A stretch of 64,000 bases of DNA from NCBI GenBank assembly GCA_039720395.1, contig CM077824.1:32824759-32888758 (forward strand), in the 5' to 3' direction. Below are positions 15,360-47,431 of this stretch, one piece after another (position 1 is the stretch's first letter; the number at the start of each line of letters is the position of its first letter). The position numbers and the translations under genes were made by a program. Below the pieces are notes generated by a model. That model did not search any database, was not told where the DNA came from, and saw only the letters and a list, made by a program, of their open reading frames with translations. The DNA comes from Liquidambar formosana (lineage: Eukaryota > Streptophyta > Magnoliopsida > Saxifragales > Altingiaceae).

Positions 15360-16620
15360 TCTTGTGATTGAATTGCTATTGCTATTCATTTCTTGAGGAA
15401 ATTATAGCACGTTGGGATTAATTAAGTGTTCATGCTTATTTTTAATCCTCGGGTTAAAATGAAGCTTTGTTGATTGGATGATGAGTTGATTGAATTCTTG
15501 GGATGTTTTGTAAGGATCATGAAATTGTTATTTCTTGATTCTTTGTCATGAATTGACATTGCTATTAATTTCTGGAGGAGATTATAGCATCATTAGAGTG
15601 TGTGCCTTGCTTAATTTTAACAAAGATTGTTAAAATAAAGCCTATGATTGCTTGATTGGAGCTGGTTTTGGAAGTATGTTTAAATGACTCTTTGAGTCAC
15701 ATACATGGATTATCTTGCATTGCTATTAATTTCTTGAGGAGATTATAGCATCATTAGAGTGTGTGCCTTGCTTAATTTTAACAAAGATTGTTAAAATAAA
15801 GCCTATGATTGCTTGATTGGAGTTGGTTTTGGAAGTATGTTTAAATGACTCTTTGAGTCACATACATGGATTATCTTGCATTGCTATTAATTTCTTGAGG
15901 AGATTATAGCATAATTAGAGTGTGTGCTTTGCTTAATTTTAACAAAGATTGTTAAAATAAAGCCTATGAATGCTTGATTGGAATTGGTTTTGGAAAGTAT
16001 GTTTAAATGACTCTTTGAGTCACATACATGGATTATCTTGCATTGCTACTAATTTCTTGAGGAAATTATAGTACATTTGGAATGTTTGCTCCGCTTAATT
16101 TTAACAAAGATTGTTAAAATAAAGCTTGTTATTGCTTGGATAGAAGTGTTTATGATAGCATGTTTAAATGACTCTTTGAGTCACATACATGGATTGCTTT
16201 GCATTGCTATTTATTTCTTGAGGAAATTATAGCACAATGAATGGATTGCCCTCACTTGATTTTAACAAAGTCGTTAAAATTAAAGTTTCATGATTTTGTT
16301 TAGTAAGTATAGTGTGTTTAAATGACCCTTGTGGTCACACACGCCCCCTATTTTGTGCGAGGTCTCTCATCCAGTGAGGTGAGCGTACATTATGGAAGCA
16401 TACGAGGTCTCTCATCCAGTGAGGTGAGCGTATGAAAGTATAGTGTGTTTAAATGATCCTTGTGGTCACACACGCCTCCTATCTTGTGCGTGTCCTCATT
16501 ATAAGGAATGAGCGTACATTATGGAAGCATATGTGTTCCTATTAGCAAGAATAGGCATATGAGAGTACCGTGTGTTTAAATGACTTTCGAGTCACACACA
16601 AACCCCCCCTATTTTATACA
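15360..16620 (+). repeat. 160-bp tandem array with three stem-loops per unit (B 3' region, copy 1)
   Basis: Near-identical units start at about 15550, 15715 and 15875, with more diverged ones on either side. A unit carries three successive inverted repeats: GCTAT(t)AATTTC/GA(A or G)ATTATAGC, TTTTAACAA/TTGTTAAAA, and GTATG-tttaaa-TGACTC/GAGTCA-CATAC. From about 16310 only the third type continues, with altered but still matching arms (GTGTG...CACAC, TGACC/GGTCA, TGACT/AGTCA). Two copies of GAGGTCTCTCATCCAGTGAG lie at about 16360 and 16405. Copy 2 (about 46010-47431) has one more 160-bp unit. No gene is present here. Confidence 0.8.
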
Positions 16621-16722: not shown

Positions 16723-16766
16723 CATTGGTGTCGCTTGCGAAGCAAACTCCACCAATGAGGGGCATC
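16723..16766 (+). other. Polypurine tract of B with an overlapping stem-loop, copy 1
   Basis: CCAATGAGGGGCATC at 16752-16766 directly precedes LTR2 and is the polypurine tract. CATTGGT (16723-16729) can pair with ACCAATG (16751-16757), with a small inner stem TTGC/GCAA around a GAA loop. Element A has the same outer stem and PPT core. The copy 2 equivalent is 47534-47577. Confidence 0.7.
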
Positions 16767-19700
16767 TGTAGACACCCCATTTTCACCCCCATGAGATTAT
16801 GATAGCATTTGGTTAGGTTTAGAAGCATGTAGGAGTCCCTAAGCCTTAAAGGACAATTTTGCCCTTTTAAGCCTTAGGAGAATAGGTCATTATTGCATGC
16901 ATATTTTTGTCTCTTTGTTGAGTCCCATCACTTGCATTTAGTTTCTAGGATCATTTTAGATATGTGTGTCAAATTTGGTTCAATTCCAGATAGGTTTGGA
17001 TAGCTAATTAGAACTTTTGCAACTTGAAGGGCAATTTCATCTTTTACTTCGTATATTTTCCAATTGACTTCCAAATTTGCTCCGGAGTGTTCCATTGACC
17101 TTAGAATGATGAAATGAGCCTAATTGAAGTGCCAATTTAATTTATTGATAGGTTTGGGATTGGTTCACCACATTACCCTATGCTTAATTGATCCTTTTTC
17201 GGGTAATTGCCTCATGAAAACCCAGCCACCTAACCGTGGTCAGGGATTCTTGGTTCAAGAATATTCTAGGCTTATTCTACATTGAATCCTTGAAATTTTG
17301 GCTTTTGAATCACTCAAATCGGAGTTAAAACGAAGAATTTGTGTTCGTTTGAAGTTCGGAGTCCAAACCGAGCTAGAATTCCAAAATTTTTGGATTCTTC
17401 TCGGGTGACCGGTTGGGCCCAACCGGTTGGACCGGTTCACCAACCGGTTGGACCGGTTGGAGCCAACCAGTCACCCGAGCGTTTCGTCCTGATTTTTCTC
17501 CTTTTGAGTTTTTGATGAAATGGGACTCTACCACTCCGAATTTCAGCCTTCTAAAGGACTTCTAAGCCTATTGGGAGGTGGTTTTGAGTTGTTTAACATT
17601 CATGGGATTTAATTACAGCCCTAGATTGGTTTTATGGTGAATTAATCCCAACCATTGGTTCATATGGTTGGTTGGTTATAAATAGAGGCTCATTCATCAG
17701 CATAAGGGACTTTTGACACTTCATACTTATAAGAGAGAGAGGGACCACGAGTTTGCACACACCCACATCACTTGGAGGAGGCTTTCTACTGCAATTTCAA
17801 AGGAGAACTAGAAGGGAACCAAGCCAAAGAGAAGGAAGAACGCAGCGAAGACCCTTGCTTCATTGTAAGTATCCTTTGCTTTCTTTTATAATTCCTTCTT
17901 CTTCTACTCCATTCCTTGCATAATTATGGCTTAGAATTGATTTAGGAATCATATATACTCTATATTTTAGAGTGTATATGATTCAAAGATGATGGGAATG
18001 CATGTTAGTGGATTAGGATTGTGAATTGCTTGCTGTTAGGATAGTTTCTCCCTTAAGGATAGAGGTACGTTTTGCATGAAAAATTAGTTGGTGTGTTTAG
18101 GCTGTTTTCTCTTCATGGTTCAATTATATGCATGATTTTAAGCATCTTTTGTATAGGATACTTGCTGTGTAAGCCTCGTCTTCATAGGTGTATGGATGAT
18201 TATCCTTTTCGAGGATAATTATCGTCCTTAGAGGATGAGGATGTGCATAGGTGCTTTCTAGAGTGTGTTTAAGTGTGCTGTGAGTTTCATTGCATTCTTA
18301 GGTATATATTTTATGTAGGATATGTGAAGAAACCATTCATATGGAGTGATTTCTACGTAAAATTATCTCCGGATAGTTTTACTTAAGAAAGCTCGCCGTA
18401 AGGATGCTTATTTCACATTCTTACATAAAGTACTTACCTAAGGCATCATGTTAGGTTTTCTTTTCATGTTTAGGATTGTCATATGATATTTTCATCATGG
18501 TAATGCCTATTTAGCATGTTTTTGATAGTTTTTGTGCATGTTAGGGTGTTTAGAGCATATAGGAGCATATAGGATATTGTTTTTCTTTTGATTTTTGTTA
18601 TTTGCATGAGTTTAGGGTCATTATATGCATGTTTAGTATTCTGTCCAGATTTGATTTAGGTCTTCTAATGATGATTTGAGCATGAATATGAATGATTTGA
18701 GCTTAATAATTGCCTTATAGAATACATAGGGTGATTAATTGGTGATTTCTCGATGTTTCGGGATTATTGGCATGGGTTTTAGGTCATTATATGCATATTT
18801 AATATTCTGTCCAGATTTGAATTAGGTTTTCTAATGATGATTTGAGCATGAATATGGTGGATTTGAGCTTAATAATTCCCCTATAGAATACATGGGGTGA
18901 TTAATTGGTGTTTTCTCGATGTTTCGGGATAATTTGCATATGGTAAGTGGTTCATGGTAAGTTGTGTATGAATTGTTCTCTTCTCCCTCCTTTGGGTTAT
19001 TCTCTTTACTTTGGACTATAATTCTTGAGTTTCCATGTTTTCTAAAATCCTTTTTGAATTAGAGTTCTATCTCTTTTAGAACTCTACTTTCATTAAAATT
19101 CTGTTTTAATTAGAGTTCTATCTCTTTTAGAATTCTACTTTTCTTAAAATCCTTTTTTAGTTAGAGTTCTATCTCTTTTAGAATTCTACTTTTCTCAAAC
19201 TCCTTTTTGGATAAGAGTTCTATCTCTTTTAGAATTCTACTTTTCTCAAACTTCTTTTTGGATAAGAGTTCTATCTCTTTTCAACTTCTATCTTTTCTCA
19301 AATTCCTTTTTTTGGAAACTCTTCTTCTTTTTCAAACTCTTCTTTTCTTTTAATGGAAACTTAGGGTTTATAGTTCATTGTAAAGGGAGTAACCCCTTCT
19401 CAATCGAACTACGTGGACTTTGATCCTTACATCTTTGTATGTAAGGTACGTAGGCGCTCATTTGATGTTCAAGTCCGCCCTAGGATACTAAGTATCCTAG
19501 GTTTTCTTTTTCTTTCTTTCTCTTTCTCTCTACCCATTTGTCCATCACATATATGCTAGTGGATAGGATGGACTCATGCTTATACATTTATCCATCACAT
19601 ATTTATTAGTGGATAGGATGGATTTGTTTGCTTGCTCATTTATCCATCACATATTTGATAGTGGATAGGATGGATTTGTTTATTCATTTTCTCTATCTCT

Positions 19701-20193
19701 CTTACCTGCTTTCCATATCTCTCATATTTGTTCATGGATGTTTACATGCTTTATGGATGTTTATATGTTTTATGGATGTTCATGGATGAATGTGGATTAT
19801 TTATGGATTATTCTTTGCATATGCATGGTGACTAATTAGGAAGTGATTGAAATAGCCCATATAAATTCAGAGACCCATTTTGGGGCGATGTGGGTGCCTA
19901 TAGGATGTTTCCTAGAACCTTCCCACATCGTAACTTAGTCTCCGAATCCTCTCTTGTTTTGATAGACCTGCTTTTCCTTGATCGGAGTCATGTGGTTTGT
20001 TTTTCAAAGGATTTCTTTAAAAAACTGTTTTATGGTTTTCCTCTTTTCCTAAAAATGAGGTGGTGACTCCTTGATTGTTTTGTTTTTGTGAACCTTTTAA
20101 AAACCAGATTTTTATTAATTTAAATCTCTACAAGTTTTTTTAAAAGAAGGGTTCTCCTTCCTTCCTCCCCTGGATCGAAACCCGTGGTTCACA
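16767..20193 (+). repeat. LTR2 (middle, shared LTR) of element B
   Basis: 3427 bp, serving as 3' LTR of copy 1 and 5' LTR of copy 2. It has the ACCGGTT inverted repeat at 17400-17479 and TATA box at 17677-17685. By eye its first 1.64 kb shares at least 14 variants with LTR3 against LTR1. Its next 1.3 kb agrees with LTR1 wherever LTR3 differs (about 11 sites, including a 14-bp deletion in LTR3). It has only about three private differences. That is the pattern of a recombinant LTR. Confidence 0.93.
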
Positions 20194-20196
20194 GTC

Positions 20197-22859: not shown

Positions 22860-25645
22860 TGTGAACCCCGGAAATTGGGCCCACGAGGGATTGAAAAGAA
22901 AGTGGGTTTGAAAAAGAAAAAGGAAAGGAGTCGCCACCTTATTTTTTAAAGGAAACAAGGAAAACCCTAAAAATAGTTTGTTTTAGGAAAACAATTTGAA
23001 TGACTCCATAAAAAAGGAAAGGCAAAAACCAATCTTTTGAAAACCAAAGAAATCGGGGATTCGGAGGCTAAGTTATGACATGGGAAGGTTCTAGGCAAAG
23101 CCTATAGGCACTCATGTCACCCTTTCGGTCTCTCAGTTCATTTGGGCTAAATTAAAGTCTTTCAATACAAAAATCAGCAAGTATATCATCACAAGAATTG
23201 CATGCATATCATATATTTCATTCATCCATCCATGCATAATAAGCAAATAAAAACAGAAAATAAAGAAAAAGAAAACAAAACAAAAATAAACCTAGGATGC
23301 TTGGATCCTAGAACGAACTTGAGCCTCACGAAGAGCGCCTACGTACCATGCAACGAAATACATGGATCAAAGTCCACGTAGTTCGATTAGAATTAGGGTT
23401 AAGACCTAATATAAACCTATGGTTAAAACCCTAGGTTTCCTTATTTGATCAAAAGAGTTGAATTTGATAGAAAGTTTGATTTTAGGAAAGAAATCCACAA
23501 AATGGAAACTTTAATAAAAACCAGAATTTTGTTGGTTAAGGAAACCTCTAATTAAACCATAGGACTTGTATTAAAAATTAATCCTAGATAGGGAGAAGAG
23601 AATGAGTTAAGAAGAAAGGTGAATTGGGGCACCTTCACACCCACTTACCTGAGCGCAATTAGCTCCAAGCATTTAGCCATTTCAGACATAAGCAGCCCTA
23701 TTTGCCATAGGACAAATACCACACCTATTTGCACCCTTACAAGTGCTCAAAACCATGCAAAAACACTAACATGCAAATCTGGACAGAATAGTATTATGGC
23801 CTAAAAATCATCCACTAAGCATGCTAACAGCAACACAGCGAACAATAATAAGTCCTAACATATTCCTAGAACCATATCATGCATAAAAACCCTAAAACAT
23901 ACTAACATGCATGCAAAACCATCATGTTTACTCCATATAAAAAACATATACAGCAAACACGAAGAAAAACCAAATAAAAAAGTCTACTTTATCATGCTAT
24001 ATGAAAACAAACACGAAACAATGACTCTAAAACCCTAAACTCACAAATATGCTTAAAAACATACAAAACATACTTTAATCATGCTAAAACCAAACTAAAC
24101 AGAAATTAAATCATGCATATTAACTAACTAAAGCAATATAACATGATGAAAATCCTAACTCTAACATGCAATGACACTAATCCTAGCACAAGGACAAACA
24201 GGAGCACAAGAATCATAACTATGCATTAAAAACCTAAAGGACAGCCCTAAAGCATGCTAAACAGTAGATAAAAAATAGATATTCCATGTATATTAACTAG
24301 CTAGAGTGTTAATACATGATAAAAAAGTCACCTTTAACATGCAATAAGCCTAACCCATATGAGAACCTAGTTTAAGCTTGAATAGAGAAGGAGAATACCT
24401 TAGGAAGTGGCTCCCCTTGTGTTTGTAATTGTTCGTGGCTCCTCAGGTCTTTAGAGTGAATCAAACCAACACGAATCCTCCTCTTTGTCAAAGTGGTATC
24501 ACAGCAAAGAGATCAAAACTCACTCAATTTTGAAAAGAAATAGAAAACAAAAAGAGAACAAGAGAAAAGAAAAAGTGATTCTCGTCACTTTGCAGCAGCA
24601 GCAACTTCAATCGCGTTTTTGGGTATGAAAACGTTGGATTTGGACAAAGCTTGTGAAATACAAAGTTGTAGAGAATTGAATTATCTTTCTACCAAGACCA
24701 ATTGCATCAAATTCGGACTTCGGATGAAAAAGTTATGATTAAAATACGACTGCTGGTTTTCAGAAAATCTGCTGCTGAATTATAACGAATTTCACTCCCT
24801 CCAAACCCTCTTCTCCTCTCCCTTGTTTAAAGACATTAAGAGAGTATTTATAGCTGAAATCTGGAGTTTCCCTTTCCTTCCTGGACTAGGTTTCCTTGGA
24901 GAATAATCAAAAGGTATTTTATAATGATAAAAGACTTCTAATCTGAATAGGAAAAGGAAATTGTCTTTTATAAAAATTGGGAGACTGACCGCTAACACGC
25001 ATGCACATGTATCGTATGTGCGTACACACACTCATCACATACGTACACGTGTTAGTGTCATGATAAAAATGGCTAATTTAATAAAATAATTTTCTTTTCA
25101 TTTTAACCAAAAATCTCATGCTGTGATTCGCACTAATTCTTCAAGGATAATCCGTAAATAACCACACTAAACTCATCATCAGGCCATATCAAAATTGAAT
25201 TTCATGAAACACTTTTGAGGGTAAAATGATGACTAATGAAAGTCAATTTGAAAAGATTTGGTTGGTAATTGTGAGTCAATTAGAGCTAACCCAAGGAAGG
25301 GTCAATTAACCAACTTGAACCACATCGAGCCATTTTAATCCCGAGCCATTGACTTACCAAATTGAACCTAGAAATACCTCTTATGCATCCATATGAACTC
25401 CAATTGACAATTTGGAGATCATTCCAAGGTCAAATGAAAAGTTTGGGACTTAAAAGACGATTATGCCCCTCAAGTCACAAAAGCTCTTATTATCCCTCAA
25501 GATCAACTCCAATTTGAACCAAAATTCATATCCATTGTCCTTGTGACTCTAGAAAACTAATGCAAGTGACTAGACTCAAAAACAAAACAAAAACATGCAT
25601 GAAATGATGAGCCCTAGTAAGGTGGTGCAAAAATGGGGTGTGGCA
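22860..25645 (-). repeat. 3' LTR of element A
   Basis: 2786 bp. Read on the - strand it starts TGCCACACCCC and ends TTCACA. The TATA box (- strand) is at 24845-24852. It contains the CTACGTGG/TACGTAGGCGCTC segment shared with the LTRs of B (about 23330-23390 here). No gene is supported. Confidence 0.95.
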
Positions 25646-25687
25646 GAAGCCCCTCATTGGCGAACAAGTTACACTTGTGAACCAATG
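25646..25687 (-). other. Polypurine tract of A with an overlapping stem-loop
   Basis: On the - strand CCAATGAGGGGCTTC (25660-25646) abuts the 3' LTR. CATTGG (25687-25682) can pair with CCAATG (25660-25655), with an inner perfect stem ACAAGT/ACTTGT around a GTA loop. Outer stem and PPT core are the same as in B, while the inner stem has different sequence. Confidence 0.72.
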
Positions 25688-25785
25688 ATAAAGAACAACC
25701 CATTTTTGGCCAAAAAGCCTGGAGAAATCACACACTGTAACCAAACAATGATGGGAGGTTGAAAACCTGAGACTGAAATAAGGAA

Positions 25786-27610
25786 GTGTACTCAAGTCAT
25801 GAGTATACTTAAACCACTGGGGGTTGATGATTGTCAAGAGAAGCATATTCAAGCCACTACGAATGAACATACTTTTGAAATGGAGAAATATATTCTAGTC
25901 ACGAATATATTTAACCAAGTGATGAGAATGAGATCTGAGAAGTACGTTCAAGTGATGAACGTACCTTGGAAATGGAGAAGTATATTCAGGTCACGAATAT
26001 ATTTAACCAAGTGAGTGACAAAAAATCTGAGAAGTATACTCAAATGATGAGTATACCACTGAAATGGAGAAATATATTCAGGTCACGAATATATTTAACC
26101 AAGTAATCTGAGAATGAAATCTGAGAAGTATACTCAAGTGGTGAGCATACCATTGAAATGGAGAAATATATCCAAGCGATGGATATCTTTAACCAAGTAG
26201 GATAAGAATAATCTGAGAGGTGTATTCAAGTGATGAGTGTACTTTTGAAATGGAGAAATATATTCAGGTCACGAACATATTTAACCAAGTGATGAAAAAG
26301 ATGCTGAGAAATATACTCAAGTGGTGAGTATACTTAATGATTGAAAAAGACTGAGAAGTACGTTCAAGTGATGAACATACTTTTGAAATGGAGAAATGTA
26401 TCCAAGTGATGGATATATTTAACCAAGTAAGCTGAGAAGTACACTCAAGTGATGAGCATACCATTGAAATGGAGAAATATATCCAAACGACGGATATATT
26501 TAACCAAGTAAGATAAGAATAATCTGAGAAGTGTACTCAAGTGATGAGTACACCATTGAAATGGAGAAATATATTCTAGTCACGAATATACTTAACCAAG
26601 TAAGTGACAAGTATGTTTGAGTGATAAACATACCATTGAAATAGAGAAATATATCCAAGTGATGGATATACTTAACCAAGTAAGTGACAAGTATGTTTAA
26701 GTGATAAACATACCATTGAAATAGAGAAATATATCCAAGCGATGGATATACTTAAGCAAATAAGATAGAGAATAATCTGAGAAGTGTACTCAAGTGATGA
26801 GTACACCATTGAAATGGAGAAATATATTCTAGTCATGAATATATTTAACCAAGTAAGTGACAAATATTCTGAGAAGTATGTTCAAGTGATGAACATACTA
26901 TTGAAATGGAGAAATATATTCAAGTGATGAATATACTTAACCAAGTAAGTGGCAAAATATCTGAGAAGTATACTCAAGTGATGAGTATACCATTGAAATG
27001 GAAAAAAATATACCCAAGTGGTGGATATACTTAACCAAGTAAGTGACAAATGATTTGAGAAGTATGTTCAAGTGATGAACATACCATTGAAATGGAAAAA
27101 ATATACCCAAGTGGTGGATATACTTAACCAAGTAAGTGACAAATGATCTGAGAAGTATGTTCAAGTGATGACCATACCATTGAAATGGAGAAATATACCC
27201 AAGCGATGGATATACTTAACCAAGTAAGTGACGAAATATCTGAGAAGTATACTCGAGTGATGAGTATACCATTGAAATGGAGAAATATATTCAAGTGATG
27301 AATATATTTAACCAAGTAAGTGATAATGAGGATCTGAAACTAGGAAGCATATTCAATGGGTGAACATGCTTTTGAAATGGAAGAATATATTCAAGTGATG
27401 AATATATTCAACCAAGTATGATAGAGAATGAGAATTTGAAGCTGAGAAGCATATTCAAAGAGTGAATACACTTTTGAAATGGAAGAATATATTCAAGTGA
27501 TGAGTATATTCAACCAAGTGGGATGGAAAATCAAGAATTTGAAACTGAGGAGTATATTCAAAGGGTGAATACACTTTTGAAATGGAAGAATATATTCAAG
27601 TGATGAATAC
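25786..27610. repeat. Array of about 38 short stem-loops with constant 7-nt loop (A 3' region)
   Basis: Units of about 95 bp hold two inverted repeats each. Type I stems are GTATACTC/GAGTATAC and relatives; type II stems are ATATATTC/GAATATAT and relatives. The loop is AAGTGAT or a close variant on the + strand. Type I is followed by CATTGAAATGGAGAA and type II by TTAACCAAGTAAGTGAC. At least seven different stem sequences occur with both arms changed together (see findings). Examples: 25942-25964, 26033-26055, 26530-26552, 26690-26712, 26966-26988. Many short ORFs in this region are by-products of the repeat. Confidence 0.88.
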
Positions 27611-27907
27611 ATTCAACCAAGTGAGATGAAAAATCAAGATTTGACATGAGGATATATGATCAATTTATCAAGATTAAACAAGCATGGTGCAAGAGGAAAG
27701 TGTCTTAACACATTGTCACTTGAGTTGGCATGGCACAGGGGAAATATATTCAACCCTTTTGAACATAAAATCAATTCAAGGAATTGATTTCAAGATGGAA
27801 TTTGATTGATTTTAAGCTCAAAAAGTGTTGAATATCTCATTTGGAAGGAGGTTTGATCACGCGTCAAGGCGAGACAAAGCGAGAAGCAAAACCAAAACAA
27901 AGTGGCT

Positions 27908-27963
27908 TGGGTGACCACCAGGCCTCGGGAGGCTAGCCGCCCAGGCCTGGGTGGTTACCCGAG
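27908..27963. promoter_or_regulatory. Long inverted repeat upstream of the antisense DUF7745-like gene
   Basis: GGGTGACCACC-AGGCCT at the left and AGGCCTGGGTGGTTACCC at the right form an inverted repeat with 17 paired positions, one G-T pair and one bulge. The GC-rich centre is short. It ends about 90 bp before the TATA box at 28051. Its outer edges (GGGTGACC, GGTTACCCGAG) match those of the ACCGGTT clusters in B. Confidence 0.6.
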
Positions 27964-28050
27964 CCCGAAGCGGAAATCCCACTTTGAATAGGAAACTTCC
28001 TATTCTGATGGGTTTTTTCCTATTTGAACTTGGATTTGTGACCTTTTCCC

Positions 28051-28058
28051 TATAAAAA
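28051..28058 (+). promoter_or_regulatory. TATA box of the antisense DUF7745-like gene
   Basis: TATAAAAACA lies 56 bp before the ATG at 28107, in a CCTATAAAAACA context. A start site near 28083 would leave a short 5' UTR. It is on the strand opposite to element A, which suggests independent transcription. Confidence 0.65.
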
Positions 28059-28106
28059 CACATCCAAGAGGTTCCTAAACCTACTTGTATTCATTCATTA
28101 GAAATT

Positions 28107-29393
28107 ATGGAGGCTCTAGACAAATTTTTAGGAGGATTTTTGAGAGTTATGAGTGCTGAAGCAAAATCTGAGTTCAAGTGCTTTGGGTTGGATCCATTGC
28201 TCTCCTTGAGGCATGTGAGGCTTGAAACGAACCTCTTGACTGCTGCTACATATTTTTGGGATCCTCAAGTTCATGTGTTCCGCTTCAACTATGAAGAACT
28301 GTGCCCAACCATGGAGGAATTCTGTGCATTGTATGGAGTTTCAACGGTAGGTCCTTTCATTCTCCCTACTCCTCGCCCAAGCTTTCTTACTTCTTTCTCC
28401 AATCTACTTGGGATTCACTCACAATATGCCTCTACGTTTGTAAAGGACCATATGGTAGACTTGATGACATTGGCAACCTCTTTTTTAGCTTGTGATAGTA
28501 AAGGTATTCTGAATTTTACCTTTCCTATTAAGCATGCACTTGCCTTTTGCCTCATTGGTCGTTTTCTTATTTCCACTGGTACTCCACATGTTCCCATTCA
28601 AATCTGTGACTTGATTCCTCTCCTTGCCAAGGGCCATAACTTGATTCCCATGGTGCTAGCTGAAACCCTGAATGGTTTGGATAAAACTCATGAGGACCCA
28701 AAGGTTCCTTTAGGAGGTAGCCCCATTCTACTGCAGATGTGGTTGCTTGAAAGACTGAATTTCTTGTCACCAGTTGCCATTACACCATACAAGCCCCAGC
28801 ATTACTGCCTTCGCCGCATTGAACTACCTGGGCAATTTTCATTGAGAGATTGGCTAGGTTACTTCCAAACCCTTTCTTGGAGGAGTGTCAAGTGGTTTGT
28901 ATTCATATGGGGCTGCAGTGACCAGGTGCTTCTGCGGACTTCTGGATGCGCCATGGTGAGACTCATAGGACTGAGGTCTACTTCCTTCTATTGGCCTTCA
29001 AGGGTTCTTCGTCAGATGGGCGCCATGCAAACCATACCCACTTCCTTGAAAGGTGACTATCCTGTGGTGCCCGCGGGTCTTTCTGTAGTGACTTGGGCGA
29101 AGGATCGATGGCCTAGCAAGTTGATACTAACCCAAGTTACGAATACTGATGGTCCATATATGATGAGCCCCGAGTATAAGGAATGGTTGAAAAGCAATTT
29201 AGGTGAGAGAGAGACTACTCGAAGAGAAAGGATTTTTGGACTTATCAAGAACAACGAACTTGGATCTTGCAGAGAAGATATTATGGAAGCAGTGACAACA
29301 GCTTATGAACATGACTTGAGGAAGAAAAGAAGACATGAAAGAGAGAAGAAGAAAGCTGAGGAGCGAGCTGCAAAGAAGCCCAAGAAAAACTGA
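28107..29393 (+). CDS. Antisense intact DUF7745-like / mobile-domain-related protein carried by A
   Basis: A 428-aa uninterrupted frame, antisense to element A, between its pol gene and the 3' stem-loop array. The N-terminal part has the run FWDPQVHVFRFNYEELCPTM followed by EEFCALYGV (about residues 50-79). This resembles the FWD...F....TPTIEEY signature of plant DUF7745 proteins, a family common in plant repeats and similar in layout to plant mobile domain proteins; the link is from memory, not a search. The middle is hydrophobic and Leu-rich. The last 60 residues are strongly charged, with an RKKRRHEREKKK segment that could be a nuclear localisation signal or coiled coil. There are no introns. 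Its own TATA box (28051) and a polyadenylation-type AATAAA (29482) frame it. It is open although the pol of A has three stops. Its function is unknown. Confidence 0.72.
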   Translation: MEALDKFLGGFLRVMSAEAKSEFKCFGLDPLLSLRHVRLETNLLTAATYFWDPQVHVFRFNYEELCPTMEEFCALYGVSTVGPFILPTPRPSFLTSFSNLLGIHSQYASTFVKDHMVDLMTLATSFLACDSKGILNFTFPIKHALAFCLIGRFLISTGTPHVPIQICDLIPLLAKGHNLIPMVLAETLNGLDKTHEDPKVPLGGSPILLQMWLLERLNFLSPVAITPYKPQHYCLRRIELPGQFSLRDWLGYFQTLSWRSVKWFVFIWGCSDQVLLRTSGCAMVRLIGLRSTSFYWPSRVLRQMGAMQTIPTSLKGDYPVVPAGLSVVTWAKDRWPSKLILTQVTNTDGPYMMSPEYKEWLKSNLGERETTRRERIFGLIKNNELGSCREDIMEAVTTAYEHDLRKKRRHEREKKKAEERAAKKPKKN

Positions 29394-29481
29394 AGACTCA
29401 ATAGAATAGGATATTTATGGCATATTTATAGTTCTTTTACTTAATACCAATGAATTGCTATGTCAATCAATTTTAGTTTTG

Positions 29482-29487
29482 AATAAA
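29482..29487 (+). terminator. Possible polyadenylation signal of the DUF7745-like gene
   Basis: AATAAA lies about 90 bp after the stop at 29393, followed by AATAATAAATC. Plausible by position only. Confidence 0.4.
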
Positions 29488-29688
29488 TTGCCAATAATAA
29501 ATCAAACTTGGGATTTTCTTGTTTGATTTAGACCGCACCCAAGGTAACTTTATGGGTTGCCTACGTATCTCCATGGTTTTTTTTTTTTCTTCTTTTTTTT
29601 TGTTTTTTTTTTTGTTTTTTTGTTTTTTTGTTTTTTGTTTTTGAATGGAGAATCAGGTCTTACGTAGTTCTTATGCCTTAACTTTTGC

Positions 29689-29718
29689 CTAGGCCGCCCT
29701 TACGGGTTTTCAACCTAG
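29689..29718 (-). other. Conserved GNRA-capped stem-loop after pol in A
   Basis: Sense of A: CTAGGTTG, bulge AAAA, CCC, loop GTAA, GGG, CGGCCTAG. All eight outer positions can pair (two as G-U) and the inner three pair perfectly. It starts 7 bp after the pol stop codon at 29725-29727. In A' it lies at the same distance from pol. Confidence 0.7.
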
Positions 29719-29724
29719 CAGGCT

Positions 29725-32700
29725 TCAAACATGATATTTCTTCAATTTATCCAAATTAGTTGGACGAGCGAACTCAATTCCATCTAAATCCATGAGGCGA
29801 ACAGCCCCTGCTGGCAATATCTCTTTGATAATGTATGGCCCACCCTAACTTGGCTTGAATTTTCCCCGCGGATCGAACACTGGAGCTCTGATTTCTTTCA
29901 TCACTACATCCCCTTTCTTTAGACCTCGATCTTTGACATGCTTGTTGAATGCTCTGGCAACTCTCCGTTGATACCCCTGAACATGATACAGCGCCCTTAA
30001 ACGCCTTTCATCCAGCAAAGCTAACTCATCATAGCGGCTCTTAACCCAGTCCACTTCTGTTATCTGGCTCTCCACGGCAACTCTTAGTGAAGGAACTTCC
30101 AATTCAACTGGCAACACGGCCTCCATTCTATAAACTAGAGAATAAGGGGTAGCCCCTGTTGACGACCTTATTGATGTTCTGTAACCCCATAGAGCCAATG
30201 GCAACTTCTCATGCCAGTCTGTGTGTGAGTCCGCAGTCTTCTGTAGTATCTTCTTGATGTTCTTGTTAGCTGCTTCCACCGCTCCATTAGTCTGAGGACG
30301 GTATGGTGACGACAGATGGTGGGCTATGCCATACTTTTGCAAGAGCTCATGGGTTTCTTTCTGAAAGTGCTGGCCATTGTCTGAGATAACTTCATGCGGT
30401 ACCCCATATCGATAGATGATGCTGTGCTGTATGAACTGTGCTACCTTCTTGGAATTCAAGGTCTTGAAGGACGCTGTTTCCACCCACTTAGTGAAGTAGT
30501 CGATGGCAACCAGGATGTATTCATGCCCATTTGACGCCTTTGGCTTGATCTGTCCGATGATATCTATCCCCCACACCGCGAATGGCCAAGGTGACGACAT
30601 ACTCGTTAAAGGCATAGAAGGCAAATGTTGTCCACTGGCGAACAGTTGGCATTTGTGGCACTTCTTGACATGTGCGTGGCAGTCTCTTTCCATGGTAGAC
30701 CAATAATAGCCTAACCTCATGATTTTCTTAGCTAACATATAGCCATTCATATGCGGAGCCCCTGTCCCTTCATGGATTTCTTTAATCAGATGCTCGGCTT
30801 CTTCCTCGGTGACACACAGCAGGTGGATCCCGTCGTATGATCTCCGATATAGCTTTCTTCCACAAAGTACATAGTGACTTGCCAACCGCCTTAGGGTTTT
30901 TCTATCAATGCGAGATGCTCCTTCTGGGTACTCCCTTTCTTCAATGAACTTCTTTATGTCATGGAACCACGGACGGCCATCATTCACTTCCCTTCCTCGG
31001 ATTGCACAACAGTACACAGGCTTGTCTCGGCATTCTATCACCAACGGCTTCACATTTCCCCCTTCAGGTATCTCCACCATGGATGCTAGGGTCGCCAAGG
31101 CATCGGCGAACTGGTTCTTGTTCCTTGAAAGGTAGTTAAATTCTATCTCTGAGAACTCCTTGGTTAGAGCTTCCAGGTAGGCATGGTAGGGTAGCAGCTT
31201 CTCATCTCGAGTTTTCCATTCCCCTTTTATCTGACAAATGATTAGCGCCGAGTCCCCGAACACTTCTAATTCTTTGATCCCCAATTCAAGTGCCGCTTCC
31301 AATGCTAGGATACAGGCCTCATACTCAGCAATGTTGTTGGTAGCTTCGAACCCCAACTTGACCGCCAACGGTGTAAATGCCTCTTTAGGTGAGACCAGCA
31401 GGACTCCTATCCCATAACCTTTCTTATTGGCTGCCCCATCGAAGTATACTCTCCAAGTTTTTCTACCAATCTCTAGCATGTCCTCATCTGGGAATTGATC
31501 GTTGAACGGAGCGGATGATGACACCGGACAGCTGGCTAGGTAGTCTGCGATGACGCTTGCCTTGATAGACTTTTGATTCACGTACTTGATGTCGAATTCA
31601 TTGAGGAGAATTGACCATCGAGCAGTTCTGAATGACAATACTGGCCTTTCTACCAGGTACTTCAACGGGTCCATGCGACTTATCAAGAACACTTCGAAGG
31701 ACATCATGTAGTGCCGGAGTTTCTGCGTCGCCCATACTAGTGCCACACAAGCCTTTTCAATTGCATTGTACTTCACTTCATAGTCTGTCATTTTCTTGCT
31801 TAAGTAATAAATGGCATTTTCCTTTGTAGACCCTTCAAGATATTGAGCTAACATAGCTCCCGTCGCGGTTTCGGTGACCGTTAAGTATAACAAAAGTGGC
31901 GCGCCTTGCCGTGGGGGAACTAAGATTGGAGGATTGCTCAAGTATCTCTTAATGGTCTCAAAGGCCTCTTGGCATTCTTCGTTCCATACTTTTGGCACAC
32001 CTTTCTTAAGCAATTTGAAGATTGGTTCGCAAACCATGGTCAAGTTGGCAATGAATCGGCTTATGTATTGAACTCTTCCCAGAAAACCTCAGATCTGCTT
32101 CTCAGTGCTAGGCGGCTCCATCTCCACAATAGCTTTTATCTTCCCTGGGTCCACTTCGATACCTCTCTGAGTGATCATAAACCCCAATAGCTTGCCTGCA
32201 GTGACGCCGAAAGCACACTTCTGTGGGTTGAGACGGAGATTGTACTTTTTTGCTCGCTCTAAGAATTTCTCTAGTGCCTTGAAATGCCCTTCCCTATCCA
32301 CGGACTTCACGATCATATCATCGACGTAAACCTTGACTTCCTTATGGATCATATCATGCAATAGGGTCGTAGCTGCTCTTTGGTAAGTAGCCCCAGCGTT
32401 TCTTAAGCCAAAAGGCATTACTTTGTAACAGTACGTTCCCCATTGCGTGATAAAGGCTGTTTTCTCCATGTCTTGAGGCGCCATCTTTATCTGGTTATAC
32501 CCGGAGAATCCGTCCATGAAGGAGAGGAGTGCATGTCCCACCGTGCTATCTACCAACACGTCGATATGGGGTAAAGGAAAGTCATCCTTAGGGCTCACGG
32601 CGTTGAGATCTCGGAAGTCGACACACATCCTCACTTTCCCATCTTTTTTAGGCACAGGCACTATATTCGACAACCACTCGGGGTACTCCACAACTTGGAG

Positions 32701-33103
32701 GAAACCCGCGTCTAGTTGTTTAGTTACCTCTTCTTTTACTTTTAGGGCCCATTCTGGTTTTAATCTTCTGAGTTTCTGCTTTACCGGCTTCTTTAGGGAA
32801 TTAGTGGGGATATAGTGTTGCACAATATCGGGGTCGATGCCAGGCATGTCTTCATAAGACTATGCAAAAGCCATAATGTTGGCTTTCAAGAGAGAGATCA
32901 TCTTTTCTTTTTCAACGGGAGAGAGGGTTTTCCCAATTTTAACTATTCTTGGCAATTCATTCGTCCCTAAGTTGATTGATTCCAATTCATCCATATTAGG
33001 TTCGGTGACGCCCCTTTTCCTTTGCTCAATGAGCTCCGGGGGGACATCGTTCCTAGGATCTATATCCACGCCATAAATATCCATAGAGGAGAGAAAAGAG
33101 ACA
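29725..33103 (-). pseudogene. pol of element A: RT, RNase H, archaeal-type RNase H, integrase; three stops
   Basis: Domains in order on the - strand: linker; RT with the catalytic YVDD (near 32315); a degenerate native RNase H, where the usual first Asp and the TDH motif are replaced (LTVTETATG and SRMDPLKYL); a second RNase H with the full D-E-D-D set (VYFDGAANKK, AEYEAC, FGDSAL, NQFADAL), the archaeal-type domain known from Tat elements; integrase with an HHCC zinc finger (HEG...HMNG...CHKCQ) and a DDE core (GIDIIG, SDNGQHF, GAVEAANKN); and a C-terminal tail. Nonsense codons are TAG 32860-32862 (TGG in A'), TGA 32089-32091 and TAG 29845-29847 (TGG in A'). Without them the frame is continuous from the putative acceptor at 33103 to 29725. 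The product would replicate and integrate the element; this copy cannot make it whole. Confidence 0.93.
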
Positions 33104-33274
33104 CTGCATATATAGAGAAAGAAAACACACTTTATTGACTAGGAATAATGGGAATGACACACAAAAGAAAGAAGGAAAACAAACAAATCTGTATCAATAC
33201 TATGACTCCACAAAGTGAGTAAAGTAGATACATCTTATTGAATTAGGGAAATATTACTAAACTAAGACACCTAC
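33104..33274 (-). other. Putative Ogre-like intron of element A
   Basis: Donor GTAGGT begins at 33274 and overlaps the gag-protease stop TAG (33271-33273). The acceptor TGCAG ends at 33104. Removing 171 bp fuses protease and RT frames in phase, exactly as in A' (170 bp, one base shorter). Confidence 0.6.
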
Positions 33275-36200
33275 AAGCTGCTATCAGGTAGGCCAAGGTC
33301 TTCTTCTTCATGGATCTCCGCAATGACACCACATTTAAGGTACCAATTCAGGAATGGCACGGTAGCATGGCTAATGGATGAACCCTGGAGTTCTTCAATG
33401 GTCGAGTCTTCCACGGTGAGGATCATGTCTTGGAACATTTCAGTCATAGCCCCCGCATCAAGGTTCTCTGCCCAGTCCTCCTCTTTCTTTTCCCAGAACT
33501 CATCATTGATGGCATCATCATCCACCATTTCAGCTGTGATTGGATACCATTCGGTGAAGAAGATTTCAAAACCCGGAACTCGGATCTTGGTAGCTTGGTC
33601 AAAGGTGGGCTCTGGAAACCCGCAATATAGAAAATCATCCCCTTCTTCGACGAAGTAACCATTCAAAGTAGGTCGATATGGCGAGATCTTCAGGTCTGGC
33701 ACCCTTCCCTCGGCTTTGGCTCTTACTTTCTCTTTGTTCCTCTTCAGCATTTCCGCATAATCATTTTTGGAGGGCTCATATCCTAACCCAAAAGTATATG
33801 AGGTGACGCGGCTTTGAATAGACGTAGGGATCCCTTGTTGGCGACGCCCTAGCCCCATGCCTGGGAAGAAACTCATCCTTCTCATGATTTCACCAACATG
33901 CAAGTTGCCATGGGGGCAAAAGTCCAAGGGTATTAATTCACCCTTTTCGAGCTCTTTCTCAATGCATTGGACATAGTCAAACCCAGATAGCGGTATCGCT
34001 GCTGATTCGGGTTGTATCTCACATATAGGCACACCTGCGAGTTTCAATTCATAGTCCCCTTGAAGTGTTACTATGGCCCCTTCATAAGGAAACTTCACCT
34101 TTTGATGGAGTGAAGATGGCACAGCCCCAGCAGGATGGATCCAAGGTCGGCCCAACAACAAGTTGAAACATGACGGCACATCCAACACTTGGAATTCTAC
34201 CCTAAATTCAGTGGGTCCCATGATAAAAAGCAAAGTAACTACCCCTATTACTTCTCGGCGGGTGTTGTCATAAGCTCTTACGGTCTGCCCAGATGGCGTG
34301 AAATCAGTGGGTCCCAAACCCAAAACAGTGGCAGTTCGGAGAGGACATACATTCAGTGCGGACCCATTGTCGATAAGAACGGTGGGAACCCTCTTCCCCA
34401 TAGTGTCAATGGTCACATAGAGAGCTTGAGAATGGCTCGGCCCGCTTTTAGGTAGGTCTATATCGGTGAACACGATGGTTGAGTTCTTGGGAGTTGGATT
34501 CACCAAATGTACCAATCCCTCGGGGGATGTATCAACAGGCACTTGTATCTGATTCAGCAATTTCAGTACGGTCTGTCTATGCTTGTGTGAAGCCATGAGT
34601 AAGCCCCAAATAGTGATGTTGGCATTGGTCTTCTTCAGCTGCCTAAGCACTTCATCCTCTTCTTCTTGCAAGCTAGGACGCCTCTGCCCTTCCAAATCTT
34701 CCAACGGATTTTCAGATTCTAGGTAGGGAGGCTTGAAATGACGACCCCCTCTGGTTATATGGTCCAACTCATCATCGCTAGCCCATATGTCATGGACTTC
34801 CTCGGAGTCATTCATCAAGTCATCCCATTCTATTATGTCGATGCTCTCCATCTCTGTCGGCAAGTCATCCCAGCCTGAAGGGACTATCGGCTCATTTGAT
34901 ATCGGACTTGGGCTTGAGTACAGCACATAGTAATCATATTTCCCCGACGCTTCACCTAATAGGCCAACCTGAGGATCCCCTGCTTCATATCTTTCTTTCA
35001 GCTCTTGTTGGATAGATTTCTTTGGTAGCAACAAAACTTTTTGGTCAATGAGGTCTTGGATGATCTTCTTTAGTATAGAACAAGCCTCGGTGTCATGGCC
35101 GGGTGCACGATGGTATTGGCAATATTGGTGAGGGGTTGATGGTCTTGGCTTTGGTGGAAGTGGCATGATAAGGCTGTTATTGCGGCAAATGGTGAAGAGA
35201 CGGGTTAAGGTCATGGGGAGCGGAGTGTATTGTCTTATGGGATGGCGAGGGCGAGAGGATTCAACCCCAATGGCATTTATGGTGTTAGGTGGGGGTGTGT
35301 TGTTGTGTGATGGGAGAGGATTACGGGTGACATTTGGACGGGTTGGTGGTGAAATGACTTGCTTGTCAATGAGGTCTTGGACTTGGTGGCGAAGGCGAAT
35401 ACAGCGATTGGTGGCATGGCCTTTGGATTGGTGGTACTTGCAGTACTCATTCTCATTGTAGCTCTTGGGTAAGGGATTTGGTGGAGGTCTTGGGTCGAGT
35501 GGCTTCAATAAGTCACGACTTATGAGCTTTTCAAGGACTCTTTTGAGTGGCATGAATAGGTCAGTGAATTGGCGAGGTGGGTTGACATCATTAAGAGAAA
35601 AGGGTTGGATTGGTTGAGTTATGGTGTTGACCTCGGCATTGTTCTTCCCAGTAAAGTTTGTCTTGTGACTCCTCACTTCCTCAGTCTTGATTGTCCCATC
35701 ATTGATAGCATCTTCAACCTGCGTGCCAGCCCCAATGAGAGCTTTGAAATTTGGGAAATAGTGGGCAAATAGGTGCTTGTGATACACGGGCAGCAGGTTC
35801 TTAACCACCAGCTGAATTTGGTCCTCCTCATTTGGCCTATCCGTCATTCTCGACGCCTTTTGTCTCCACCTTGTAATGTAAGCGGAGAAAGTTTCATGAG
35901 CCCCTTGCTTGGTAGTTTCTAGGTCCCTTCGAGTAACGTCCACCTCTGTGTTATACTTGTAGTGCTCTGAAAACTCATTGCATATGTCTTCCCAAGTCCG
36001 GGTTCTATTCTCATCCAAGGATAAGAACCATTTCAAAGCAGAAGTGGCCAAGGTTTCATGGAACATTTGAGCTAAAAGCTCGTCAGTAGCCCCTCGAGGG
36101 TGCATAGCTCGCACGTACATCTTCAAATGAGTCTTAGGGCAACCCGTCCCATCGAACTTTTCTAACTCCGGCATCTTGAATTGTAGTGGAATACGAGCCG

Positions 36201-36609
36201 TTGGAAACAGGGATAGAGTCCGCACATCGACCATGTCATCAGCCGTGCGAATCCCTTTTATGGTTCTCTCCAAAGCTTCTACCTTGCTCGCTAACACGGA
36301 ATCACTGCTAGTACCTTTCCCCTTGGCTTCCCCTTCTAGGTTGGTGACCTCAGGTTTCGAGCTACTTTCCCCCCTTGTCTTGGTGTTCTCATTGGATTGA
36401 GGTCCCTCTTCGGTGCCAGCCCCATGAGGTATACCCGAGGAATGGGCCTTAGAGCCATTTTGTTCAAGATCCGCCATCTTCTGTTGGTTCTCTTGAGCCA
36501 TTTTCAATGCGGTATCGGATATCTCGGCGGTATGGTCAAGCTTGGCCATGATGGCTTTCAGGCAAGCCTCAAGGTCAAAGTGCCCCTCACTAGTTCTTTC
36601 GTTGGCCAT
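33271..36609 (-). CDS. gag-protease polyprotein of element A (intact)
   Basis: Start: ATG at 36609 (MANERTSEG). The frame is open for 22 more codons upstream but without an ATG. 1112 aa. Layout: charged N-terminus with a predicted coiled-coil-like heptad region (about residues 10-55); retrotransposon gag domain from MPELEKFDG (about residue 146) to about 290; Pro-rich linkers with two knuckles CKYHQSKGHATNRC and CQYHRAPGHDTEAC, both CX2HX4HX4C instead of the usual CX2CX4HX4C, each followed by an IQDLID helix; an acidic stretch; an aspartic protease with active-site LIDNGSALN (about residue 745); a Gly-rich, G-patch-like segment (PGMGLGRRQQG ... FGLGY, about residue 920); an acidic C-terminus. 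It forms the capsid and the maturation protease. The stop can be removed by the putative intron, joining it to pol. No nonsense mutation is seen. Confidence 0.93.
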   Translation of the reverse strand: MANERTSEGHFDLEACLKAIMAKLDHTAEISDTALKMAQENQQKMADLEQNGSKAHSSGIPHGAGTEEGPQSNENTKTRGESSSKPEVTNLEGEAKGKGTSSDSVLASKVEALERTIKGIRTADDMVDVRTLSLFPTARIPLQFKMPELEKFDGTGCPKTHLKMYVRAMHPRGATDELLAQMFHETLATSALKWFLSLDENRTRTWEDICNEFSEHYKYNTEVDVTRRDLETTKQGAHETFSAYITRWRQKASRMTDRPNEEDQIQLVVKNLLPVYHKHLFAHYFPNFKALIGAGTQVEDAINDGTIKTEEVRSHKTNFTGKNNAEVNTITQPIQPFSLNDVNPPRQFTDLFMPLKRVLEKLISRDLLKPLDPRPPPNPLPKSYNENEYCKYHQSKGHATNRCIRLRHQVQDLIDKQVISPPTRPNVTRNPLPSHNNTPPPNTINAIGVESSRPRHPIRQYTPLPMTLTRLFTICRNNSLIMPLPPKPRPSTPHQYCQYHRAPGHDTEACSILKKIIQDLIDQKVLLLPKKSIQQELKERYEAGDPQVGLLGEASGKYDYYVLYSSPSPISNEPIVPSGWDDLPTEMESIDIIEWDDLMNDSEEVHDIWASDDELDHITRGGRHFKPPYLESENPLEDLEGQRRPSLQEEEDEVLRQLKKTNANITIWGLLMASHKHRQTVLKLLNQIQVPVDTSPEGLVHLVNPTPKNSTIVFTDIDLPKSGPSHSQALYVTIDTMGKRVPTVLIDNGSALNVCPLRTATVLGLGPTDFTPSGQTVRAYDNTRREVIGVVTLLFIMGPTEFRVEFQVLDVPSCFNLLLGRPWIHPAGAVPSSLHQKVKFPYEGAIVTLQGDYELKLAGVPICEIQPESAAIPLSGFDYVQCIEKELEKGELIPLDFCPHGNLHVGEIMRRMSFFPGMGLGRRQQGIPTSIQSRVTSYTFGLGYEPSKNDYAEMLKRNKEKVRAKAEGRVPDLKISPYRPTLNGYFVEEGDDFLYCGFPEPTFDQATKIRVPGFEIFFTEWYPITAEMVDDDAINDEFWEKKEEDWAENLDAGAMTEMFQDMILTVEDSTIEELQGSSISHATVPFLNWYLKCGVIAEIHEEEDLGLPDSSL

Positions 36610-37465
36610 GTCTGTCTGATGGGTAGACTCAACACTCACTAGACGCCCTTGTGGATTGCGGATCCAAGCCAGCACGTCTATGGATAGAAAAGTTTTAACC
36701 TTTAGCCTAAGGACTTGTCCTAAACCTCCATATTTTCCTTAATGAACTCGGTCTCTACACCATGTTCAATTAATTCATTCCTTTTATCCAATTACCTTTA
36801 CAGGGATCATGGATTAAGGGTATGTTTTAAAGAATAGGGCATAGAGTCCTTCAACTAGGTTTAATTAATCCCCTAGGACTAGCACATCACAAACATAGCT
36901 TTACATCCTATTTCCTTAATTTATTCCTCCTAACCCATGGCCTTAACGAAGGCTAGGGTTTAAAGGTCTATATTTTAGGGCATAAGATATGAAGCCTCAC
37001 ACCACAAACACAGCATAGCATCATTACAAACAATTGTGGGTGCATAAAGGTGAGACCGTAGTGTCCTACAAGTCTGTCTATATGGACTAATGATAAAAGT
37101 AGGCTAGGGTCCTTCACTTGCTTGAGCAATCCTTATACCTAACCACATGTGGCATCAGGAACGCCGCGTGGGTCCAGCAGTACGTGATTAACTCATTTAA
37201 TATACCCAAGGGCAAGCCCAAGGGTACTAGGCAAGAGAGGTTGATAGCTTTCGCCCCAACACATGGAATCAGGAAAACCAAGGTTGAGACTAGGCCGATC
37301 GTTGGCAAGGATACATCGAGGGACATCGATCCTAACATGCAAGAGTTTGCGCACACAATGCAATAAATGAAAGCACACAATCAAGCGGATGCAATGTGAT
37401 TGATTTTAATTAAACATAAGAAATTAACCTAGCCCAATTAAACTTTATAGAGTCTAGCCCACAAA
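36610..37465 (-). other. Leader of element A between PBS and gag
   Basis: About 850 bp without a supported gene. Ogre elements proper carry an extra ORF at this place, and I find none here. The part near the PBS (about 37100-37440) resembles the B leader (GATTGATTTTAA, CCAAGGGCAAGCCC, GCGGCGTTCC-like phrases), which again links the two families. Confidence 0.6.
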
Positions 37466-37483
37466 TCCCCAGCGGAGTCGCCA
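37466..37483 (-). other. Primer-binding site of element A
   Basis: TGGCGACTCCGCTGGGGA on the - strand, three bases (GTT) after the end of the 5' LTR. One base differs from the PBS of B. Confidence 0.88.
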
Positions 37484-37486
37484 AAC

Positions 37487-40267: not shown

Positions 40268-40272
40268 AAGTG

Positions 40273-46009: not shown

Positions 46010-47431
46010 TCTTGTGATTGAATTGCTATTGCTATTCATTTCTTGAGGAAATTATAGCACGTTGGGATTAATTAAGTGTTCATGCTTATTTTTAATCCTC
46101 GGGTTAAAATGAAGCTTTGTTGATTGGATGATGAGTTGATTGAATTCTTGGGATGTTTTGTAAGGATCATGAAATTGTTATTTCTTGATTCTTTGTCATG
46201 AATTGACATTGCTATTAATTTCTGGAGGAGATTATAGCATCATTAGAGTGTGTGCCTTGCTTAATTTTAACAAAGATTGTTAAAATAAAGCCTATGATTG
46301 CTTGATTGGAGCTGGTTTTGGAAGTATGTTTAAATGACTCTTTGAGTCACATACATGGATTATCTTGCATTGCTATTAATTTCTTGAGGAGATTATAGCA
46401 TCATTAGAGTGTGTGCCTTGCTTAATTTTAACAAAGATTGTTAAAATAAAGCCTATGATTGCTTGATTGGAGTTGGTTTTGGAAGTATGTTTAAATGACT
46501 CTTTGAGTCACATACATGGATTATCTTGCATTGCTATTAATTTCTTGAGGAGATTATAGCATCATTAGAGTGTGTGCCTTGCTTAATTTTAACAAAGATT
46601 GTTAAAATAAAGCCTATGATTGCTTGATTGGAGTTGGTTTTGGAAGTATGTTTAAATGACTCTTTGAGTCACATACATGGATTATCTTGCATTGCTATTA
46701 ATTTCTTGAGGAGATTATAGCATAATTAGAGTGTGTGCTTTGCTTAATTTTAACAAAGATTGTTAAAATAAAGCCTATGAATGCTTGATTGGAATTGGTT
46801 TTGGAAAGTATGTTTAAATGACTCTTTGAGTCACATACATGGATTATCTTGCATTGCTACTAATTTCTTGAGGAAATTATAGTACATTTGGAATGTTTGC
46901 TCCGCTTAATTTTAACAAAGATTGTTAAAATAAAGCTTGTTATTGCTTGGATAGAAGTGTTTGTGATAGCATGTTTAAATGACTCTTTGAGTCACATACA
47001 TGGATTGCTTTGCATTGCTATTTATTTCTTGAGGAAATTATAGCACAATGAATGGATTGCCCTCACTTGATTTTAACAAAGTTGTTAAAATTAAAGTTTC
47101 ATGATTTTGTTTAGTAAGTATAGTGTGTTTAAATGACCCTTGTGGTCACACACGCCCCCTATTTTGTGCGAGGTCTCTCATCCAGTGAGGTGAGCGTACA
47201 TTATGGAAGCATACGAGGTCTCTCATCCAGTGAGGTGAGCGTATGAAAGTATAGTGTGTTTAAATGATCCTTGTGGTCACACACGCCTCCTATCTTGTAC
47301 GTGTCCTCATTATAAGGAATGAGCGTACATTATGGAAGCATATGTGTTCCTATTAGCAAGAATAGGCATATGAGAGTACCGTGTGTTTAAATGACTTTCG
47401 AGTCACACACAAACCCCCCCTATTTTATACA
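46010..47431 (+). repeat. 160-bp three-stem-loop array (B 3' region, copy 2)
   Basis: As 15360-16620, but with four rather than three near-identical 160-bp units (extra unit about 46381-46560). In the late unit near 47090 the arms TTTTAACA/TGTTAAAA pair perfectly, whereas copy 1 has a mismatch there. Confidence 0.8.

Follow-up and report, generated by a model that had tools for sequence, protein, structure and literature searches.

A tandem array of hairpins with covarying stems in the 3′ region of a Tat/Ogre-type LTR retrotransposon of Liquidambar formosana

The window analysed here, a stretch of 64,000 nucleotides of Liquidambar formosana DNA, consists of nested plant LTR retrotransposons, one of which (element A, 22860-40270, minus strand) sits inside another (element B), as delineated by self-BLAST. 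Element A is a Tat/Ogre-type Ty3/gypsy LTR retrotransposon (self-BLAST and Pfam), bounded by LTRs of 2790 bp on the minus strand (22860-25649 and 37487-40270) that are 99.2% identical, and is a young element. A primer binding site-like motif is located right behind the 5′ LTR (37466-37483, minus strand; identified from the sequence and an exact match). Pfam assigns a gag ORF of 1155 aa with Retrotrans_gag and G-patch domains (33271-36738, minus strand), a reverse transcriptase (RVT_1, 32089-32859, minus strand; E 1.9e-28) and a further part of pol with RNase H, an additional RNase H (RVT_3) and integrase (29845-32088, minus strand), a stop separating the reverse transcriptase ORF from the RNase H-integrase ORF. 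Since these ORFs all lie on the minus strand, the genomic RNA of element A carries the minus-strand sequence. A further element (element C, 61114-64000), about 94-96% identical to element A, is cut off by the end of the window just before the expected site of the array described below.

The pol region of Ogre/Tat elements is arranged in the order reverse transcriptase, RNase H, additional RNase H and integrase, and the same order (RVT_1, RT_RNaseH, RVT_3, rve) is found in element A. The additional RNase H is given as a mark of the Tat lineage, and a plant mobile domain is reported in 57% of Ogre elements, in the available text of one study (PMC6317226). An extra ORF with this domain is present in element A, as in Ogre/Tat elements, in antisense orientation between pol and the 3′ LTR (28056-29393, plus strand; 445 aa, PF10536, Pfam E 2.8e-17). 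At an E value of 0.001, the only Pfam families detected in this ORF are the plant mobile domain and DUF7745; TRP28, which the accessible part of a Retand study reports in the antisense ORF of 97% of clusters (PMC11963269), is absent at this threshold, and in this respect the element does not resemble Retand. The protein database contains 10 relatives of the antisense protein, the best with 92% identity. A locus for this protein was found neither in genome contigs nor in viral contigs, and the viral contigs likewise yielded none for the pol part at 29845-32088. Separately, four viral contigs matching a pattern derived from the repeat were discarded, as blastn of the window against all four revealed no similarity.

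Element B (3501-51003, self-BLAST) is laid out as LTR-internal-LTR-internal-LTR, with LTRs at 3501-6931, 16766-20196 and 47577-51003, an arrangement for which unequal recombination is the probable cause; the second internal part is the one that has received element A. Its LTRs are 3.43 kb long, and behind them stands the primer-site motif of element A with one mismatch. The first internal part contains three ORFs of at least 150 aa, of which one is an antisense plant mobile domain ORF (Pfam) and two have no match to a Pfam family, so that element B is non-autonomous in appearance.

Between the antisense plant mobile domain ORF and the 3′ LTR of element A lies an array of hairpins (25786-27612, minus strand), defined by flanks, pairing, covariance model and consensus fold. 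It comprises 39 clear hairpins and a degenerate one of type A (25835-25880, minus strand; 30.5 bits with covariance model R1), which is excluded from every count. The array is real and close to the size given in an earlier, sequence-only reading of the locus (about 38 stem-loops), and the arm pairs listed in that reading are all present. There are 20 type-A and 19 type-B hairpins, with 8-bp arms and a 7-nt loop, arranged as two hairpins per unit of ~92-93 bp (lengthening distally to ~102 bp). Like Tat-type 3′ arrays, the array is tandem, comprises at least three units in the interval from pol to the 3′ LTR, and is family-specific in sequence. Model R1 was built from the hairpin at 26960-26998 with its flanks (minus strand), which is also its top match (64.6 bits), and 19 other type-A hairpins; model R2 was built from the hairpin at 27277-27315 with its flanks (minus strand; top match, 68.8 bits) and 18 other type-B hairpins. 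Neither model has a match with E <1 in the window beyond the array, blastn at E 0.01 finds no match to the array in the rest of the window, and Rfam 15 returns no match at gathering score anywhere in the window.

The stems prove to be longer than the 8 bp previously ascribed to them, although the 8-bp arms themselves are present. In the consensus obtained with RNAalifold from an alignment of 18 units, with no structure supplied, the type-A stem consists of 8 bp extended by an outer G.U and a loop-closing A-U pair (10 bp), and the type-B stem of 10 bp and a loop-closing A-U pair (11 bp), followed by a 2x2 internal loop and a lower UGG/CCA helix; the example at 27277-27315 has this 10-bp stem and lower helix. 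Perfect Watson-Crick arms (8/8) occur in 16 of the 39 hairpins, and accepting G.U as a pair raises the number of fully paired hairpins to 32 of 39 if it is read on the minus (transcript) strand, versus 21 of 39 if it is read on the plus strand. The loop, said earlier to be constant, is not: the exact sequence AAGTGAT is found in just 18 of 39 hairpins, and mean diversity is 0.243 in loops. Nor is it the case, as had been claimed, that the arms vary against unchanging loops and linkers, since mean diversity is 0.198 in stems (0.251 in type A, 0.155 in type B) and 0.212 in all non-stem columns, and the arms overall are thus no more variable than the rest. With LTRs only 0.8% apart but unit columns differing by ~20%, the hairpins must be older than the present insertion, and most of their divergence precedes it. 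Past the distal end of the array, at 27745-27790, there are two isolated hairpins, with arms TATATTCA/TGAACATA and AAATCAAT/ATTGATTT.

The dataset for the following comparisons is one array in one copy of element A, together with one companion array in element B. Within the array of element A, 96.7% of type-A and 97.4% of type-B cells are paired, and when the letters of the 3′ arms were shuffled, 0 of 500 trials for type A and 1 of 500 for type B matched the observed pairing or covariation score; both measures are also higher than in slid controls. Exchange of 3′ arms among hairpins never gave folds as good as those with their own arms (0 of 500 for both types and on both strands), and the energy cost of the swap is larger on the sense strand, though the advantage of a hairpin's own arms reaches significance on the antisense strand as well. 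In the window as a whole, 151 starts of perfect 8-bp hairpins were counted versus 3-10 in ten block shuffles, and 34 of the 151 fall within three 1-kb bins of the element A array.

Covariation was also compared with a tree-aware null, which preserves the tree and how many changes each column has undergone. With this null, applied by a custom script rather than R-scape to a single array and to 18 of the 20 type-A and 18 of the 19 type-B hairpins, the covariation is 0.438 versus 0.264 for type A (reached in 2 of 1000) and 0.258 versus 0.176 for type B (29 of 1000); with a tree from all columns the corresponding counts are 2 of 1000 and 17 of 1000. The tree analyses and the unit alignment omit the type-A hairpins at 25786 and 26311 and the type-B hairpin at 25888, which have no partner within the unit. 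Within this one array, covariation thus exceeds the phylogenetic null, as a maintained structure would require, and the covarying stems reported earlier stand, mostly for type A: changes on both sides are seen in 6 of 8 type-A pairs but in only 1 of 8 type-B pairs, plus one compensated pair just beyond the 8-bp stem. RNAalifold identifies compensated changes in 8 of the 24 pairs of a consensus unit. The strongest covariation is at type-A pairs 5 and 6 and type-B pair 9 (numbered as in the tree-aware comparison), the remaining pairs being individually unremarkable; no compensated change occurs in type-B pairs other than pair 9 and the outermost one, and the type-B covariation rests mainly on one pair. 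For type B, 450 of 500 shuffles equalled the observed number of pairs with changes on both sides, and counts of pair types do not stand above shuffles for either type (reached by 500 of 500 for type B and 145 of 500 for type A). Type-A pairs 5 and 6 largely change together, and the events at these two pairs are consequently not independent.

The kinds of substitution differ between stems and the remainder of the units. Counted on the tree, transitions and transversions number 56:2 in stems and 52:28 in non-stem columns (P 4.8e-6; 2 of the 55 non-stem columns, each with fewer than 12 letters, were dropped), and with the other tree 46:2 and 53:27 (P 5.6e-5). The same bias is apparent from a tree-free count, in which a transversion is present in 2 of 25 variable stem columns versus 19 of 34 non-stem columns (P 1.2e-4). 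When stems are compared with loops alone, the difference is modest, both in the tree-free count (2 of 25 stem versus 5 of 12 loop columns, P 0.025) and on the trees (P 0.013 or 0.057). Transitions are the changes that pass via G.U pairs, and the transition bias in stems therefore fits selection for RNA helices. The cells that are not Watson-Crick paired on the transcript strand comprise 21 G.U, 7 A.C and 2 other combinations, and some G.U pairs are spread across several units, one of them across seven. By hand grouping, no A.C pair is common by descent, and one column has A.C in two separate hairpins. Counted as events, again grouped by hand, the numbers are 11 G.U versus 7 A.C (sign test P 0.24; weighted P 0.07), or 11:6 if the two A.C cells in one type-A column (25786 and 26220), here taken as two events, are merged. 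By events, the excess of G.U over A.C on the transcript strand is only suggestive, and the preference for the sense strand by events is weak. Substitutions in flanks and loops (32 versus 31 cells in columns with a 60% consensus) have no strand bias that would mimic the G.U excess.

These data bear directly on an alternative that had also been put forward on first inspection, according to which template switching during reverse transcription (or, as we add here, replication) repairs quasi-palindromes by copying one arm onto the other, so that covariation arises without selection. Palindromes and tandem repeats are classical substrates for template switching, and both the perfect arms of the 16 hairpins noted above and the clustering of two-column changes at type-A pairs 5 and 6 speak in favour of arm correction. 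Arm correction should, however, transfer transversions as readily as they occur elsewhere, whereas they are nearly absent from stems although the linkers and loops of the same units accumulate them freely (56:2 versus 52:28), and four type-A columns that hold a double change also hold single-sided G.U intermediates. We therefore regard correction between arms as unlikely, if still the best of the alternatives; with the transition bias of the stems and the better fold of the sense strand, selection on RNA helices is the preferred reading rather than neutral arm copying.

Predicted folding favours the sense strand. The array with its edges (2111 nt) folds at -603.8 kcal/mol in the sense and -554.4 kcal/mol in the antisense direction, the mean stem probability exceeds 0.5 for 34 of 39 hairpins in the sense and 21 of 39 in the antisense strand, and a 481-nt part of the array has a z score of -11.8 in the sense strand versus -4.8 in the antisense strand. 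Fold strength alone is nevertheless no argument for the array, because stretches outside it fold equally strongly: when the window was cut into 255 pieces of 250 bases and both strands were scanned, the piece at 54751 on the minus strand (z -15.1) is on a par with the best piece of the array (-14.8). A 179-bp tandem repeat at 54618-55191, upstream of a copia-type gag (56787-57668), has a very strong fold, chiefly on the minus strand.

The strand preference is relevant to a second alternative, in which the palindromes act at the level of DNA, either as sites for a dimeric protein, such as a host factor or the plant mobile domain protein encoded in antisense, or as cruciforms, and drive or regulate the antisense gene. 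Seen along the plus strand, the array is upstream of the antisense ORF, and plant mobile domain proteins are assigned roles in gene regulation and silencing in the available portions of two reports (PMC7156037, PMC5418596), both of which would suit such sites. A specific site would be expected to retain its letters, and duplex DNA favours neither transitions over transversions nor one strand over the other. The earlier proposal that the antisense product binds double-stranded DNA is accordingly a poor fit, since the arm sequences differ while pairing persists, and a DNA-level role of either kind appears improbable. Binding sites for protein in RNA, the other role proposed at that stage, are by our analysis plausible, and the view that the array bears the signature of a maintained structure gains support from the tree-aware covariation, the near absence of stem transversions and the sense-strand folding.

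A companion to the array is present in element B, where a 161-bp tandem repeat occupies the corresponding position between the antisense plant mobile domain ORF and the 3′ LTR (15553-16285 and 46203-47096). These arrays are unrelated to that of element A (blastn yields a single shared 12-mer, at chance level, E 0.27), yet the full unit contains about three inverted repeats, one with 15-nt arms, one with arms TGACTC/GAGTCA and a weaker third, the last two recognised by eye. When the most diverged full unit is compared with its neighbour, 1 of 63 positions has changed in the two main hairpins, 3 of 29 in the third and 23 of 70 elsewhere (P 7e-7 for main hairpins versus outside positions); the hairpins were picked after inspection, and the comparison excludes the copy near 47065 as well as the fifth unit, which begins at 16198 and is incomplete. 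Two further comparisons give 1 versus 26 and 1 versus 22 of 70 but, as all three share the one diverged unit, they are not independent. The arms are near-invariant among units, with too little variation for covariation, and the array, which folds well in both directions, does so no more strongly in the sense (z -5.3) than in the antisense direction (z -7.3), so that the strand preference of the element A array is absent there. From the occurrence of hairpins at the same place with unrelated sequence, structure may outlast sequence in these elements. In a further 161-bp tandem repeat of element B (13680-14396), several units contain a small hairpin, GGCATA-2-TATGCC, with a few adjacent changes.

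The near-unchanged main hairpins of element B, in units whose linkers diverge, are not predicted by arm correction. The presence in the window of two unrelated arrays, both bearing hairpins and both at the same position, is in turn what would be seen if hairpins cause reverse transcriptase to pause and switch and hairpin-containing segments thereby become arrays, as a mutational by-product with no function for the element. The family-specific sequence of 3′ tandem arrays, whose origin is called unknown in the accessible text of PMC11963269, is also compatible with such a process. A by-product of this kind would account for the origin of the arrays but not for their upkeep, the covariation and the deficit of transversions having arisen after duplication, and we judge it to be as improbable as a role at the DNA level. 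Chance complementarity of the arms in an AT-rich tandem repeat, for which only their shortness and AT-richness speak, is ruled out by the shuffles, the slid controls, the tree-aware null and the arm swaps (0 of 500), and can be set aside as a very remote prospect.

The explanation that we prefer, and consider probable, is that the array constitutes a cis-acting, structured 3′ non-coding region of the genomic RNA of element A, in which about 40 sequence-degenerate hairpins are kept by selection on pairing and would form a multivalent docking strip. Tandem duplication and mutation would alter the letters of the units, while selection on RNA pairing would retain the hairpins; the 3′ part of the genomic RNA would then offer about 40 putative docking sites to an RNA-binding protein that reads the shape of the stem together with short loop and linker motifs. 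Candidates for this protein are the Gag of the element, which has to select the element's own RNA in packaging or particle assembly, and a host factor through which the full-length RNA would be exported or stabilised, as for retroviral and IAP/musD elements; docking of Gag is slightly favoured because copy number matters for assembly. A role as scaffold in packaging, export or stability is in any case the function that we infer. It is conceivable, although we hold this only tentatively and think it on balance doubtful, that the ‘hypervariable’ 3′ tandem arrays of Tat/Ogre elements, long regarded as junk and as a source of satellites, are RNA hairpin scaffolds in general, in which the letters turn over between families and the row of hairpins is kept as a signal for packaging, export or stability.

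Compared with the hypervariable 3′ regions of the Tat lineage (Ogre, Retand), the array of element A is alike in its location between pol or the antisense ORF and the 3′ LTR, its tandem organisation and its family-specific sequence, but differs from those described in that its units are hairpins with covarying stems. Tandem repeats between pol and the 3′ LTR are reported in about half of the surveyed recently active Retand elements, their origin and function being called unknown, in the available sections of a study in which a search for the terms ‘hairpin’, ‘stem’ and ‘secondary structure’ found none of them (PMC11963269). Arrays of Ogre elements are described as the seeds of most satellites of Lathyrus sativus in the accessible text of PMC7004042, where the terms ‘hairpin’, ‘stem-loop’ and ‘secondary structure’ were likewise not found. 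Among the titles and abstract openings listed for literature on tandem repeats, hairpins or export in these elements, no account of covarying hairpin arrays in such elements was encountered.

Retroviral and IAP/musD export elements occur singly or in small numbers per RNA. The array of element A resembles these elements (CTE, RTE and MTE, and the direct repeats of RSV) in being cis-acting structured or repeated genomic RNA, the element of MPMV also being placed at the 3′ end of the RNA in the portions available of two reports (PMC12789967, PMC12786077); it is unlike them in consisting of about 40 short hairpins with no Rfam match. Direct studies of RNA export in plant LTR retrotransposons are said to be lacking in the accessible part of one of these sources (PMC12786077). 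If the arrays are structured cis-acting RNA, they would gain a function and what survives their rapid sequence turnover would become predictable, and covariation of hairpins on the sense strand would provide a quick computational test for the thousands of copies already known.

Two further systems invite comparison. The 3′ UTRs of alfamo- and ilarviruses contain arrays of hairpins that bind coat protein, in the form of short hairpins in series with single-stranded linkers, and the array of element A is similar in being a series of hairpins at the 3′ end of an RNA, although these are viruses of another kind. In fungal mitochondrial DNA, mobile double-hairpin elements and GC clusters likewise represent repeated hairpins with compensated stem changes; unlike these dispersed elements, the array is fixed inside an LTR retrotransposon. 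As a minor observation on the loops, some of those of type B (25888-26844) have the sense-strand sequence GUGAC, which would allow four base pairs with the UCAC of the common loop. A kissing contact of UCAC in the AUCACUU loop with GUGA in the GUGACCU loop, recognised by eye, is possible, GUGA being present in only some of the type-B loops.
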